A stretch of 64,000 nt of DNA from Gilliamella sp. wkB171 (GTDB lineage Bacteria; Pseudomonadota; Gammaproteobacteria; Enterobacterales; Orbaceae): NCBI RefSeq assembly GCF_001693755.1, contig NZ_LYST01000043.1:310001-374000 (forward strand), given 5' to 3'. The notes under the pieces are model-generated. The model saw only the letters and a list, made by a program, of their open reading frames with translations. It did no database searches and had not been told where the DNA came from. A program made the position numbers and the translations under genes. This document shows, in pieces, positions 14,608-20,241 of the stretch (the first letter of the stretch is position 1; each line of letters begins with the position of its first letter).

Positions 14608-14627
14608 GCGCTAAACAAGCGCTTATT
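14603..14627. terminator. compact bidirectional terminator shared by sotB and uup
   Basis: AATAAGCGCT (14603-14612) pairs with AGCGCTTATT (14618-14627) around a 5-base loop. The sotB stop (14605-14607) and the uup stop (14623-14625) both lie inside the stem, so one hairpin ends the two convergent genes. Confidence 0.75.
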
Positions 14628-16548
14628 GGCTTAACGATTCAAGTTGTTCCCAGCGTGTAAATACAGTTTCTAATTCAGCTTCTTTATCGGCCAAATCTTG
14701 TAATATTTTGCTAGTAACGTCATGAGGTTGGTTAAAAAAGTCACTATGACCTATTTGTGTTTGTAAATCACTAATAGCCACTTCTAGTTGCTCAATCTTA
14801 ATTGGTAATTGAGTCAATTCACGTTGCTCGTTATAACTCAGTTTGCCTCTCTTTTTAGTGGTTTGATCTTTGTTATCAACAACTAGATTAGCTTCATTGT
14901 TAGTTGATTTACTCGACTGATTAAGGGGTATTTGTGCTTTAACGGGGTTGGCTTGTTGCTGTTGTTGTAAAGCATCGTTATAACCACCTGCATAAATACC
15001 AATATGACCATGATCTTCAAAAAACCAGCATTGTGTGACAACATTATCCACAAATTGCCTATCGTGGCTAACAAGTAAAACCGTTCCTTGATAATCATTA
15101 ACAAGTTCTTCTAGTAATTCTAACGTATCAATATCAAGATCATTGGTTGGTTCATCAAGTACCAATAAATTACTTGGTTTTAAAAAGAGTTTTGCTAATA
15201 ACAGACGATTACGCTCACCACCGGATAATGCTCTTACTGGTGTACGTGCTCGTTTGGGTGGAAATAGAAAATCCTGTAAATAGCCTAAAACATGCCTTGA
15301 GCGCCCATTTACCATCACTTCTTGCTTACCTTCAGCAAGATTATCCATTACGGTTTTTTCGGGATCGAGTTCTAATCGATACTGATCAAAGTACGCAACT
15401 TCTAACTTGGTTCCACAATGAACATGACCGGATGTTGGGATTAAATCACCTAACATTAATTTTAGTAATGTCGTTTTACCCACTCCGTTAGGTCCAATTA
15501 AGGCGATCTTATCACCTCTTAAGACTTGCACGGTAAAATCTTTAATTAATTGTTTATTCTCAATTTGATAACTGACATCATCAAGTTCAAAAACAATTTT
15601 ACCTGATCTTAATGCTTCTTCGATTTGCATCTTAGCACTGCCCATCACTTGACGGCGCTCGCGATGCTCTTGCCGCATTGCTTTTAAGGCGCGTACTCTG
15701 CCTTCGTTACGTGTTCGGCGTGCTTTAATACCTTGACGAATCCAAACCTCTTCTTGAGCTAATTTTTTATCAAATTCCGCATTTTGTAGTTCTTCAACCC
15801 GTAATGCTTCTTCTTTGCCAATTAAATAACTATCATAATCACAACCCCATGATGCAACCTTACCGCGATCCAAATCAATAATACGCGTCGCCATTTGTCG
15901 AATAAAAGATCGGTCATGAGAAATAAAAACAATACTGCCATTAAAACTTTTTAAAAACTCTTCTAACCATTTAATCGTTTCAATATCCAAATGATTGGTA
16001 GGCTCATCAAGTAATAAAACTGTTGGTTGACAAACCAGCGCTTTGGCTAAAGCGGCTTTACGTAACCATCCACCCGACAATGATGATAATAATGCATCAC
16101 CATCTAAAGAAAGTGATGAAATCACATTACGAATACGATTATCTAGTTGCCAACCATTTTGATGATCGAGTTGCTCTTGAATTTTTGCCAACTTAGTTAA
16201 ATTACTTTCTGTTGGATTTTGCTCAATTTGATGAGATAAATCATAATAATCTCGTAATAATTGCGCCTGATCTTTTAATCCTTCTGCCACAAAATCAAAT
16301 ACATTACCTTGAATATCTCTAGGAGGATCTTGTTGAAGGCGTGAAACAATAACATTATTTTCATAAATAATTTGTCCTTCATCTAAAGGCACTTCTTTAT
16401 TAAGGACTTTAAGTAACGTCGATTTACCTGCCCCATTACGTCCAACAAGACAAACTCGTTCATTTGCTTCAATCGACAGATCAATATGATCAAGCAGTGG
16501 TGCATCACTAAATGAAAGATAAGCATTTGTAAGGTTAATTAATGACAT
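14623..16548 (-). CDS. uup: ABC-F ATPase Uup
   Basis: A cytoplasmic ABC-F protein of 641 aa with two ATPase domains and no membrane segments. NBD1 has Walker A GRNGAGKST (near residue 36), LSGG and LLDEPTNHLD; NBD2 has GPNGVGKTT (near 354), LSGGERNRLLLAKLF and LVLDEPTNDLD. A C-terminal region rich in Gln and charged residues (from about 530) ends in a coiled coil, the Uup-type DNA/ribosome-interacting tail. Uup affects precise transposon excision and ribosome assembly in E. coli. It is monocistronic here. Other ABC-F members lack this tail, so the name is well supported. Confidence 0.92.
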   Translation of the reverse strand: MSLINLTNAYLSFSDAPLLDHIDLSIEANERVCLVGRNGAGKSTLLKVLNKEVPLDEGQIIYENNVIVSRLQQDPPRDIQGNVFDFVAEGLKDQAQLLRDYYDLSHQIEQNPTESNLTKLAKIQEQLDHQNGWQLDNRIRNVISSLSLDGDALLSSLSGGWLRKAALAKALVCQPTVLLLDEPTNHLDIETIKWLEEFLKSFNGSIVFISHDRSFIRQMATRIIDLDRGKVASWGCDYDSYLIGKEEALRVEELQNAEFDKKLAQEEVWIRQGIKARRTRNEGRVRALKAMRQEHRERRQVMGSAKMQIEEALRSGKIVFELDDVSYQIENKQLIKDFTVQVLRGDKIALIGPNGVGKTTLLKLMLGDLIPTSGHVHCGTKLEVAYFDQYRLELDPEKTVMDNLAEGKQEVMVNGRSRHVLGYLQDFLFPPKRARTPVRALSGGERNRLLLAKLFLKPSNLLVLDEPTNDLDIDTLELLEELVNDYQGTVLLVSHDRQFVDNVVTQCWFFEDHGHIGIYAGGYNDALQQQQQANPVKAQIPLNQSSKSTNNEANLVVDNKDQTTKKRGKLSYNEQRELTQLPIKIEQLEVAISDLQTQIGHSDFFNQPHDVTSKILQDLADKEAELETVFTRWEQLESLSQ

Positions 16549-16746
16549 ATTTTTGGTTTTATTTGGATATTAAATAATAAAGCGTTATTCTATCACAAAG
16601 TTGTAATAGGCAACTAAATTCAATTTTCAAAGTTGTAGTTAAAGGCTTCACTATGGTGAGCATTCAATGCTCTTCTTTTAAAAAATAAATACTGCGATAT
16701 TTTTACTATTTATCACTATCAATGATATTTCATTATGGAGGTTATG

Positions 16747-18915
16747 ATGAGCCATATGTGGACATTTCAACGTGTAGGTGGATTAGATCAAGTCGTTTTT
16801 AAAAGTGCTGACGATATTATTGATTTACCACAATTAGATCCCAAATTATGGGTGGCATTAAGTTGCCCTACAACAGGGTTAGATTTTGACGAAAGAACAC
16901 TTGCGTTATTAGATGATGATAAAGATGGGCGAATTCGTATTCCTGACATTTTAAATGCAATTAATTGGATAAAAGACAAAATAGTATCTTTTGATAATAT
17001 TTTAACAAGCCGGCCGACCTTACCTTTATCAGAGATCAACACATCGACCGAACAAGGTAAAAAATTATTAATAACCGCTCGTAGTATCTTAGCCAATCTA
17101 GGTAAAAATCAAGCGGAGTCTTTGACGCAAGATGATGTACAACAATCGTTTAAAATAAATGCAAGTAAACTCTATAATGGCGATTTGATTTTTCCTGCAT
17201 CTGCTCAATTACCAACTCAAATGCAATCTTTTATTGAATCTGCCATTAAAACTGTTGGTGCAGAAAAAGATATGAGTGGACAAGATGGTATAACGCTCGA
17301 CATCGCTAAAACTTTTGTAAGCAATATCAAGATATGGCAACAATGGCAAACAGATATTAGTAATACCCAAACACCTTTTGGTGCAAATAGTGCAGAAATA
17401 TGGAAATTAATCCAATTACTTAAACCTAAAATTGATGATTATTTTTTACGTGTTGAACTGGCGCAATATGCGCCCCAAGCACAATCAGTACTTAATGTTG
17501 ATGAGAAGTATATTGTACCAAATCAAAATGGACTGTTATCAAATGAAGCACTCGCTCAATTACCTTTATCTAAAATTGATAACAGCCTAACGCTTGACTT
17601 AGTCAATGGTCTTAATCCGCTTTGGAAAGACAAAATTAGCCGTTTTAAAACATTAGTTGCAACTTCATTGACTAATCCAAATCAACTTAGTCAATCAGAA
17701 TGGAAAGCGATACAACATAGCTTGGAAGGCTACGCTACATTGATTAATTCTAAACCGGAAATGGTGAAATTAAATGTCACAACCAACCCAACGGAAAGTA
17801 TAGAGGATATACCAAATCAACTCATCAATGATTCGACAATCGATCATTTATTGCTTGAATTTGAAAAAATGATTGAACAAGACAGTAAAACACCAATTTC
17901 AGCATCAGATGTATTAGTGTTAGAAAAACTGGTGCTTTTTCAAAAACACCTTTATCGTTTATTAGTTAACTTTGCTTCATTTGCTGATTTCTTTTCACTG
18001 GAAAAAAGAGCCGCATTTCAATTAGGAAAACTTTATATTGACGGTCGTTGTGCCACATTATGTGTTGCGGTAGAAAATATAGCTAAACACTCAACGATGG
18101 CCAATTACTCCGAGTTATGTCTACTTTATTGTGAATGTACCAGACTAGGCGAAAAACAGACTATTGCAGCAGCAATCACAGCGGGGCAAGGTGATCTATT
18201 AATAGAGGGGCGTAATGGTGTATTTATCGACAACGATGGCAATGACTGGGATGCCAATGTAGTTAAAATGATAACTAAACCCATTAGTATTCAACAAGCA
18301 ATATGGGCACCTTATCAACGTATAGGGCGTTTAATTACGGAACAAATTAACAAATGGGCAACAAGCAAAGATGCTGATATCGAAAAATCCAGTGAAAAAG
18401 TCATCCAACAGCCAGAAACAAAATTTGATATTGGTAAAAGTGTCGGAATTTTTGCTGCTATAGGCTTAGCTGTCGGCGCCATAGGTACTGCACTAGCCAC
18501 ACTATTTCAAGCTATTTTTTCACTTACTTGGTGGCAATTTCCACTGGTTTTTATCGGTCTGTTTTTAATTATTTCAGGTCCTTCTGTTGTTTTAGCTTGG
18601 TTAAAATTAAGGCGTAGAACACTTGGTCCTTTACTTGAAGCATCCGGCTGGGCAATTAACGGGCAAGTAAAAATCAATCTATTATTAGGAAGATTACTTA
18701 CCAGCAAAGCAGAACTACCGGATAACGCTAAACGAAATTTACGCGATCCATTAAAAAGAAGAAATAAAAAATTAACTATAGCATTTTGGTTAGCCATTGT
18801 ACTTGGCATAGCTATAAGTGGAGGATGGCTTTGGTATAAAGGGTATTTCAATCAATATTTAGAACCGGAAAAGTCTTCAGTTCAAAAAAATACCACAACA
18901 ACTTCAGAAAAATAA
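16747..18915 (+). CDS. large EF-hand membrane protein of unknown function
   Basis: A 722-aa protein I do not recognise by name. Residues 56-67 form a canonical EF-hand calcium loop (DDDKDGRIRIPD) in an otherwise long soluble region (1-555) rich in helices. Hydrophobic segments follow near 560-585, 592-615 and 675-697, ending in a short polar tail, so the big N-terminal domain is anchored by a C-terminal membrane module. I place the start at ATG 16747, five bases after GGAGG (16737-16741); ATGs at 16735 and 16744 overlap or crowd that site. It stands alone between uup and glyA. Calcium sensing at the envelope is a guess. Confidence 0.8.
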   Translation: MSHMWTFQRVGGLDQVVFKSADDIIDLPQLDPKLWVALSCPTTGLDFDERTLALLDDDKDGRIRIPDILNAINWIKDKIVSFDNILTSRPTLPLSEINTSTEQGKKLLITARSILANLGKNQAESLTQDDVQQSFKINASKLYNGDLIFPASAQLPTQMQSFIESAIKTVGAEKDMSGQDGITLDIAKTFVSNIKIWQQWQTDISNTQTPFGANSAEIWKLIQLLKPKIDDYFLRVELAQYAPQAQSVLNVDEKYIVPNQNGLLSNEALAQLPLSKIDNSLTLDLVNGLNPLWKDKISRFKTLVATSLTNPNQLSQSEWKAIQHSLEGYATLINSKPEMVKLNVTTNPTESIEDIPNQLINDSTIDHLLLEFEKMIEQDSKTPISASDVLVLEKLVLFQKHLYRLLVNFASFADFFSLEKRAAFQLGKLYIDGRCATLCVAVENIAKHSTMANYSELCLLYCECTRLGEKQTIAAAITAGQGDLLIEGRNGVFIDNDGNDWDANVVKMITKPISIQQAIWAPYQRIGRLITEQINKWATSKDADIEKSSEKVIQQPETKFDIGKSVGIFAAIGLAVGAIGTALATLFQAIFSLTWWQFPLVFIGLFLIISGPSVVLAWLKLRRRTLGPLLEASGWAINGQVKINLLLGRLLTSKAELPDNAKRNLRDPLKRRNKKLTIAFWLAIVLGIAISGGWLWYKGYFNQYLEPEKSSVQKNTTTTSEK

Positions 18916-18984: not shown

Positions 18985-20241
18985 TTAATGTTGATAAACC
19001 GGTAGTCGCTTACAAATAGCTAGCACTTTTTCTTTTACTGCTTGTATAGTTTGCTCATCATCAATATTATCTAGCACATCACACATCCAATTCGCGAGTT
19101 CTCGTGATTCGGCTTCTTTAAAACCACGTCGGGTAATTGCCGGCGTACCAATACGCACACCAGAGGTAACAAATGGGCTTTGTGGATCTTTAGGAACACT
19201 ATTTTTATTCACTGTAATATTTGCACTACCTAAAGCAGCATCCGCTTCTTTACCTGTGATATTTTTATCAACCAAATCAATTAAAAATAGGTGGTTTTTA
19301 GTTTCGCCAGAAACTACTTTATAACCACGTTTTAAAATAACTTCAACCATAGCCTGTGCATTTTTCACGACTTGTTGTTGGTAAATTTTATATTCTGGCT
19401 CCATCGCTTCTTTCAGTGCAACTGCTTTTGCTGCAATAACATGCATTAAAGGGCCACCTTGCGCGCCAGGAAAGACCGATGAGTTTAATTTTTTATAAAG
19501 ATCTTCACTACCATTTTTAGCTAAAATTAATCCACCACGTGGACCGCCAAGCGTTTTGTGTGTCGTTGTTGTTACAACGTGCGCATAAGGCACTGGATTT
19601 GGGTAAACACCTGCGGCAACTAAACCTGCAACATGGGCCATATCAACAAAAAAGTATGCCCCTACGCTATCAGCTATTTCACGCATACGTTTCCAATCAA
19701 CAATACCTGAATAAGCTGAAAAACCACCAATAATCATTTTAGGTTGCGACTCTTTAGCGATTTTAGCTAATTGCTCATAATCGATATGACCGGTAGCATC
19801 AACACCGTAGGCAACAATATTATAAAGTTTACCTGAAAAACTAACAGGTGCGCCGTGCGTCAAGTGACCGCCTTCAGATAAATTCATGCCTAAAACAGTA
19901 TCACCGGGCTGTAAAAGTGCGGTATAAACAGCAAAGTTAGCTTGTGATCCAGAATGGGGCTGTACATTAGCATAATCGGCGCCAAATAATGCTTTAGCAC
20001 GATCTATGGCTAATTGCTCAACAATATCAACATATTCACAACCGCCATAATATCGTTTACCGGGATAACCTTCCGCATATTTATTGGTCAGTTGAGAGCC
20101 TTGAGCCTGCATAACACGAGGGCTGGTGTAATTTTCTGATGCGATAAGTTCGAGATGATCTTCTTGTCGTTGTTCTTCACCTTTAATCGCATCCCACAAA
20201 TCCTTATCATAATCGGCAATTGTCATTTCTTTACTAAACAT
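18985..20241 (-). CDS. glyA: serine hydroxymethyltransferase
   Basis: PLP enzyme that interconverts serine and glycine, with tetrahydrofolate as the one-carbon acceptor; 418 aa, one residue longer than E. coli GlyA. The PLP-lysine motif [14 protein letters not shown] is near residue 225, and HSGSQAN and DMAHVAGL are intact. AAGGAG lies seven bases before the ATG. It is convergent with the EF-hand gene and forms the left border of the duplicated adhesin island. Secure. Confidence 0.97.

Follow-up and report, generated by a model that had tools for sequence, protein, structure and literature searches.

The gene at positions 16747-18915 (plus strand) of the window, the whole 64,000-nt stretch of Gilliamella sp. 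wkB171 DNA analysed here, raises the question of whether a protein with one canonical EF-hand loop and a C-terminal membrane module responds to intracellular calcium, holds a metal ion for structural reasons or acts on the membrane in some other way. Its coding sequence was delimited from the open reading frame (ORF) list, by inspection of start sites and from the starts of homologues. The ORF lister places the start at 16735, giving 726 aa, but ATG 16747, giving 722 aa, is the better choice because a likely ribosome-binding site, GGAGG (16737-16741, plus strand), lies 5 nt before it and many homologues begin at the matching residue in the alignments. Residues are numbered throughout on the 722-aa protein, that is, the 726-aa number minus 4. 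The gene stands by itself: an ABC-F gene on the minus strand (14623-16548), which we take to be Uup-like, is divergent from it, and a minus-strand gene (18985-20241), presumably glyA, converges on its 3' side. Promoter-like sites were no more numerous than in shuffles (10 observed versus 11.1). The product comprises about 555 soluble residues followed by three hydrophobic helices, much as an earlier note on this DNA had described it (some 550 soluble residues, then a membrane module).

A pattern requiring ligands at positions 1, 3 and 5, Gly at 6, a hydrophobic residue at 8 and Asp or Glu at 12, with position 9 left free, matches the window protein once, compared with a mean of 0.003 matches per composition-shuffled copy in 20,000 shuffles. 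This match, the canonical loop DDDKDGRIRIPD (residues 56-67; 16912-16947, plus strand), which is also evident in the alignments, carries Asp at position 12 and Arg at position 9 and bears out the claim of the earlier note that the protein has one canonical calcium loop, here regarded as a putative binding site. As in the 12-residue loops of the EF-hand superfamily, positions 1, 3 and 5 are acidic or polar and position 12 is Glu or Asp, and the loop lies between helices in the AF2 model: residues 49-76 (EF-hand 1; 16891-16974, plus strand) form a helix (49-55), a short strand (62-64) and a second helix (65-76), a block with pLDDT 90-94. Conservation was assessed in an alignment, A2, of 61 homologues (80 named loci minus 15 near-identical Gilliamella loci and two truncated ones, leaving 63, minus three near-duplicates, plus the window protein) and in 30 additional copies outside A2 (32 loci minus the interrupted copies L118 and L152). 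Complete ligands are present in 59 of the 61 aligned homologues, in 29 of the 30 additional copies and, in a count that overlaps with these, in 90 of the 92 distinct copies of the first set whose N terminus could be read (of 94 in all, two are cut at contig ends); made non-redundant at 75%, 115 of 117 copies were reduced to 56. Loss of the loop aspartates in homologues, which the earlier note had named as the finding that would render the match fortuitous, did not occur: in A2, position 1 is Asp in 61/61, position 3 is Asp in 56/61 (Asn in three, Gly in two), position 5 is Asp in 60/61 and position 12 is Glu in 55/61 and Asp in 6/61, hence acidic throughout. Gly occupies position 6 in 56/61 and Ile, Val or Leu position 8 in 61/61. 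All six divergent planctomycete copies (L153-L158) keep the loop ligands; they score 380-517 bits, and the remaining 24 rows of the 30 score 731-1087 bits.

The Orbaceae rows mostly have Asp at position 12 (9/9 in alignment A1), and position 9 (residue 64 of the window protein, nt 16936-16938) is Arg in 58/61 sequences of A2 and in 28/30 additional copies. For comparison, the same position is occupied by Gln, Asp, Ser, Gly, Glu or Thr in 13 loops of four unrelated EF-hand proteins (five loci were compared, of which four gave sequence with two loops). The PROSITE EF-hand pattern excludes Arg at position 9, and the chemistry of Asp at 12 and Arg at 9 is compatible with low Ca2+ affinity or with Mg2+ as the ion. 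The combination of Asp at 12 in Orbaceae with a near-universal Arg at 9 thus suggests a weak or unusual metal affinity, such that the affinity for Ca2+ may be low or the ion may be Mg2+. Arg at position 9 may be a family hallmark that bears on ion choice or kinetics; the available text of PMC3997525 yielded no position-9 data.

In addition to EF-hand 1 at residues 49-76, the whole-protein AF2 model (mean pLDDT 84.9, pTM 0.66) contains helix-short strand-helix units at 102-139, approximately 128-169 and 157-205. From this pattern, residues 114-139 (17086-17163) appear to form a degenerate EF-hand-like unit, a possible partner of EF-hand 1, and two more EF-like loops are apparent from the profile and alignment, all on the plus strand: loop 3 (residues 142-153; 17170-17205), with a conserved N-G-D-G, and the non-canonical loop 4 (residues 175-186; 17269-17304), with a conserved DxSGxxG. 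In A2, N144 and D146 of loop 3 are invariant (61/61 each), as is G181 of loop 4 (61/61), with D175 found in 60/61; the canonical end ligands are absent from both loops, loop 3 having no acidic position 1 and being rarely acidic at 12. The N-domain profile listed 16 PDB sequences at E up to 10, and 12 of these carry the name of an EF-hand or calcium-binding protein, the best being a weak match (E 0.022) to polcalcin, an EF-hand pair, over residues 127-193; others include CDPK over 50-85 and NCS-1 over 51-74, and the matches at E 0.02-0.1 are singly not significant. In hhalign comparisons, residues within 41-73 land on EF-hands of all four unrelated EF proteins used (4/4), each time with a score above that of the reversed control, at probabilities of only 1.5-21.7%. 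Taken together, the conservation of the loop and several weak results that agree in direction argue for EF-hands, and the N-terminal domain may be viewed as an array of EF-hands in which a single site is canonical.

No recognized family covers the protein, as had been surmised earlier. For the window protein, Pfam yielded no family above cut-off and no EF-hand family even at E up to 10, NCBIfam gave no match at E up to 10, and nothing significant emerged from PDB sequence searches with the whole protein, the whole profile, the N-domain or the beta domain. The failure of the window protein to reach the Pfam EF-hand gathering score weakens the case for formal Pfam membership but leaves the evidence from the loop as it is. 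Across the 61 homologues, EF-hand families of Pfam were matched at E up to 0.1 (EF-hand_7 in 20, with a best E of 0.00046, EF-hand_6 in 16, EF-hand_5 in nine and EF-hand_1 in eight), and NCBIfam at the same threshold returned XopAW in three and LanM in two (best E 0.00077), both of them calcium- or EF-hand-type proteins, along with six other families in one or two homologues each. Two further Pfam matches were set aside. MFS_1, in 11/61 homologues (best E 9.5e-5), was judged to reflect hydrophobic similarity, and the same is likely for DUF2207_C, which scores 14.8 bits against a cut-off of 33 in the window protein, spans the long helix, TM1 and TM2 (535-629 in the 726-aa numbering) and matches 3/61 homologues at E up to 0.1. 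Open frames upstream of three family copies, which might represent fusions, contain no Pfam domain at E 0.01, and a literature search confined to titles and the starts of abstracts found no paper naming the family. In the Gilliamella genome, EF-hand_7 (PF13499) has no match at E 1e-4; the same search misses the window protein, so that other single EF-hands are possible.

Downstream of the putative array, the AF2 model predicts a mainly helical middle region (residues 206-411; 17362-17979), followed by a small beta domain (residues 412-512; 17980-18282), delimited from the alignment and AF2 models, and a 40-residue helix (residues 515-554; 18289-18408) that joins the soluble part to the membrane, all on the plus strand. 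The beta domain has conserved C439, H448, C462, C464, T478, D495 and W501; neither this domain nor the degenerate EF-hand-like units figured in the earlier note. Modelled alone (pLDDT 82.3, pTM 0.75), it gave no convincing PDB match in Foldseek (best E 0.12), and its best VIA match, EF-Tu domain 3 (Z 3.9, 64-67 residues, rmsd 3.1-3.9 A), says only that the model resembles a small beta-barrel-like domain. The segment from residue 439 to 464 (window 18061-18138), with C439, H448, C462 and C464, is a possible second metal or redox site. Metal binding by this Cys/His set is speculation, and the divergent planctomycete copies are devoid of most of the Cys (C439 and C464 absent in 6/6, C462 in 5/6) and retain H448 and Y461.

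In the hydropathy profile, three membrane segments stand out as peaks around 560-594, 591-620 and 675-696. TM1 (residues 562-588; 18430-18510), which contains GIFAAIGLAxGAxG, and TM2 (residues 593-618; 18523-18600), with a conserved SGPS inside the helix, are defined by the AF2 model, hydropathy and conservation and form a Gly/Pro-rich two-helix hairpin; a conserved basic loop with GWAxN, predicted to be cytoplasmic (residues 619-674; 18601-18768), and the variable TM3 (residues 675-697; 18769-18837), both defined by hydropathy and conservation, complete the module on the plus strand. Relative entropy is 3.19 bits for TM1, 3.00 for TM2, 2.99 for the TM2-TM3 loop and 2.98 for the beta domain, and 2.88 for residues 1-45 and 2.74 for EF-hand 1; the value for the protein overall is 2.36, and TM3 with the tail has 1.12. 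The C-terminal membrane anchor of the earlier note is therefore upheld as to its three segments but not as a simple anchor, since conservation peaks in TM1-TM2, the loop and the beta domain. Accordingly, the TM1-TM2 hairpin is taken to be more than an anchor and to represent the output module, and TM3 is probably no more than an additional anchor. The membrane-module profile and the full-length profile match an identical set of 17 of 119 genomes of the planctomycete phylum, at identical positions, indicating that in this sample the module does not occur apart from the EF-hand head.

None of the homologues (0/61) has a hydrophobic segment within its first 60 residues, and the TM2-TM3 loop carries, on average over the same 61, 9.9 Lys and Arg and 3.8 Asp and Glu. 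Given the lack of a signal sequence and the basic loop, the EF-hands are predicted to be cytoplasmic and the topology to be N-in, loop-in, C-out. The protein thus combines a constrained EF loop and three C-terminal hydrophobic helices, including a conserved TM1-TM2 hairpin and loop, with no export signal. We tentatively favour, at somewhat less than an even chance, a Ca2+- (or Mg2+-) responsive inner-membrane protein, in which the predicted cytosolic head passes the metal state to the hairpin. Upon a rise of the metal in the cytoplasm, Ca2+, or possibly Mg2+, would occupy loop 1 and make the N-terminal EF-hand array pack differently; this change would be relayed via the helical middle region, the beta domain and the 40-residue helix (515-554) to the Gly/Pro-rich TM1-TM2 hairpin, for which conduction, lipid handling or partner binding are candidate outputs. 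Several observations weigh against a sensor: only one loop is canonical and the remaining ones are degenerate, a configuration less typical of cooperative sensors; the window protein escapes the EF-hand models of Pfam even at E 10; the residues preceding TM1 are not basic (4.2 Lys and Arg, 4.9 Asp and Glu); and neither a recurrent neighbour outside Orbaceae nor a fold match names an output.

The same single canonical loop, with its degenerate companions and its D12 and R9 variants, would suit a structural site, at which the EF loop permanently holds Ca2+ or Mg2+ and serves not to sense but to stabilize the head, the protein being a membrane scaffold or enzyme. This reading, doubtful but a serious contender, also draws on the distribution of conservation, with 2.98-3.19 bits in the beta domain and TM hairpin versus 2.74 in the EF-hand 1 region; because the former are better conserved, the working parts may lie outside EF-hand 1. 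The retention of loop ligands in copies devoid of other conserved residues fits the sensor and the structural site equally well.

We regard as unlikely a Ca2+-controlled channel, pore or membrane-remodelling protein, whose TM1-TM2 hairpin would oligomerize and either conduct ions or bend the membrane. The spacing of small residues and the invariant GIFAAIGLA in TM1, the best conserved region, are consistent with such an activity, as is the polar SGPS kink inside TM2. In VIA alignments of the whole model, the top two places go to the alpha-pore-forming toxins XaxB (Z 4.6, rmsd 16.1 A over 203 residues) and PaxB (Z 4.5, rmsd 8.4 A over 123). However, Z-scores of this size are typical of common arrangements, the superpositions are poor by rmsd, and Foldseek found no match to the whole model at E 0.001.

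Export of the soluble domain, which would then sense periplasmic or external Ca2+ in the manner of EfhP, appears very improbable. According to the available parts of the respective reports, known exported or membrane EF-hand proteins of bacteria include EfhP, for which a location beyond the cytoplasm is predicted (PMC4053335), and the Caulobacter CaBP, for which one is reported (PMC13171946), but the present family has neither the N-terminal hydrophobic segment nor a TM2-TM3 loop of the charge that this topology would call for. Finally, a fortuitous loop match, for which the silence of the EF-hand models on the window protein might be invoked, is scarcely credible given ligands conserved across eight phyla by record title and the rarity of the pattern in shuffled proteins.

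With the calmodulin-like EF-hand superfamily (polcalcin, NCS-1, CDPK), the family shares the helix-loop-helix, D1, D3, D5, a hydrophobic residue at 8 and E/D12, and polcalcin aligns with the EF-like pair of its N-domain profile; it differs in having one canonical loop, in the Arg at 9 and in being embedded in a 722-aa membrane protein. EfhP (PA4107) of Pseudomonas and CasA of Rhizobium are likewise bacterial EF-hand proteins. In the text available, EfhP is predicted to be membrane-anchored and is linked to Ca2+ homeostasis (PMC4053335); it has an N-terminal TM segment and two loops, its EF-hands being predicted periplasmic, whereas the window protein has three C-terminal segments, one canonical loop, a predicted cytoplasmic head and, as in all 61 homologues, no exporting N-terminal signal or TM segment. 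Bacterial EF-hand fusions surveyed in PMC7016017 include 7TM, Tic110-like, NADPH oxidase, cNMP-binding and other architectures, in which EF-hands are joined to membrane or signalling modules, as in the present family; none of those named in the text available matches the window protein. As far as these sources go, bacterial EF-hand membrane proteins are already known, and what appears to be new is an unnamed family with a putative EF-hand head on a conserved membrane hairpin.

The window protein belongs to a full-length family; in the best 80 loci, identity is 37-45% for members outside Orbaceae. A scan of named genomes uncovered at least 560 relatives among at least 582 candidate stretches, of which these best 80 were kept; by record title they represent eight phyla, Nitrospirota, Elusimicrobiota and Cloacimonadota by one MAG each. 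All eight are diderm groups, Gram-positive phyla lying outside the named sampling. The family is present in 33 of 35 genomes of the same genus, own genome included (the two misses are genomes 74% and 59% complete), in 34 of 60 relatives overall and in 15 of 197 genomes of the order sample, nine of them from the same genus. Profile searches of phylum samples, each including its centre genome already known to be positive, were positive for 11/299 genomes in Pseudomonadota, 5/198 in the phylum of a genome titled Bacteroidetes, 6/118 in that of strain Smac51, 17/119 in that of a planctomycete and 24/95 in that of a Myxococcales genome. The phyletic survey that had been proposed thus reveals a patchy distribution across eight phyla by record title, usually with a single copy per genome, and this patchiness disfavours a universal Ca2+ pathway. 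Two copies occur in Nitrosomonas ureae Nm13 and in genomes G930 and G726, those of the latter two being partly interrupted or cut; L153-L158 form a divergent planctomycete group, and in G930 one of the two copies (L152) is broken by a stop. The family was not found in viral contig and phage collections, and the one plasmid place is partial: a relative without an annotated gene at 1748-2125 of the Aeromonas salmonicida conjugative plasmid pBY3 (NZ_CP060033.1, L180), near tet(Y) and tetR(Y), aligns with query residues 360-485 of 726 at 37.7% identity.

In a 69-row tree, built by a quick method with SH-aLRT support only and leaving out 16 named Gilliamella loci and truncated copies, the Orbaceae copies form one clade (SH-aLRT 99) inside a 12-row group (100) that also holds Bilophila, another Desulfovibrionaceae member, strain Smac51 and two planctomycete MAGs and is separate from other gammaproteobacterial copies. 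This position points to a likely lateral entry into an Orbaceae ancestor, with paralogy or binning errors as alternatives; perhaps the transfer took place among gut bacteria, a gut origin suggested by record names only.

Gene context was compared by clustering 74 loci, 73 of which are in the target cluster. The ABC-F gene adjoins the family gene in 12 of 13 clustered Orbaceae loci, some of which are the same genome fetched twice, and outside Orbaceae no neighbour recurs across phyla among the clustered loci. An apparent ABC cluster of 21 loci proved to be a mixture of these 12 Orbaceae ABC-F genes and nine other ABC ATPases; the ABC gene of L097 presumably is also ABC-F. Pfam annotation covered one Nitrosomonas gene and 19 of the 28 close same-strand genes among 153; these 20 neighbours produced a mixed list, of which about eight look envelope-related. 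By a crude count, an N-terminal hydrophobic segment is present in 17/42 close same-strand neighbours, 37/122 adjacent genes and 84/321 controls, and this weak signal for an envelope-related context was not used as evidence. Four Nitrosomonas loci (L075, L077, L114 and L116) share one gene family directly upstream on the same strand; its L075 member matches Pfam DPBB_1 and is presumably RlpA-like.

Bacteria hold cytosolic Ca2+ low and show Ca2+ transients and, to our knowledge, few membrane-coupled sensors of cytosolic Ca2+ have been confirmed in them. The mechanisms are described as little known in the available part of PMC9132961, and the present family is a candidate for this poorly understood intracellular calcium sensing. 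Since it is usually present in single copy in culturable Gilliamella, Methylomonas and Nitrosomonas, a direct genetic and biochemical test is possible. The boldest version, a long shot, would be a new family of membrane proteins whose conserved two-helix module is gated directly by cytosolic Ca2+ and acts as a channel, pore or lipid-handling device, and which has reached at least eight phyla through both vertical inheritance and lateral transfer. If true, the Ca2+-gated hairpin would be a direct effector of cytosolic calcium across at least eight bacterial phyla.
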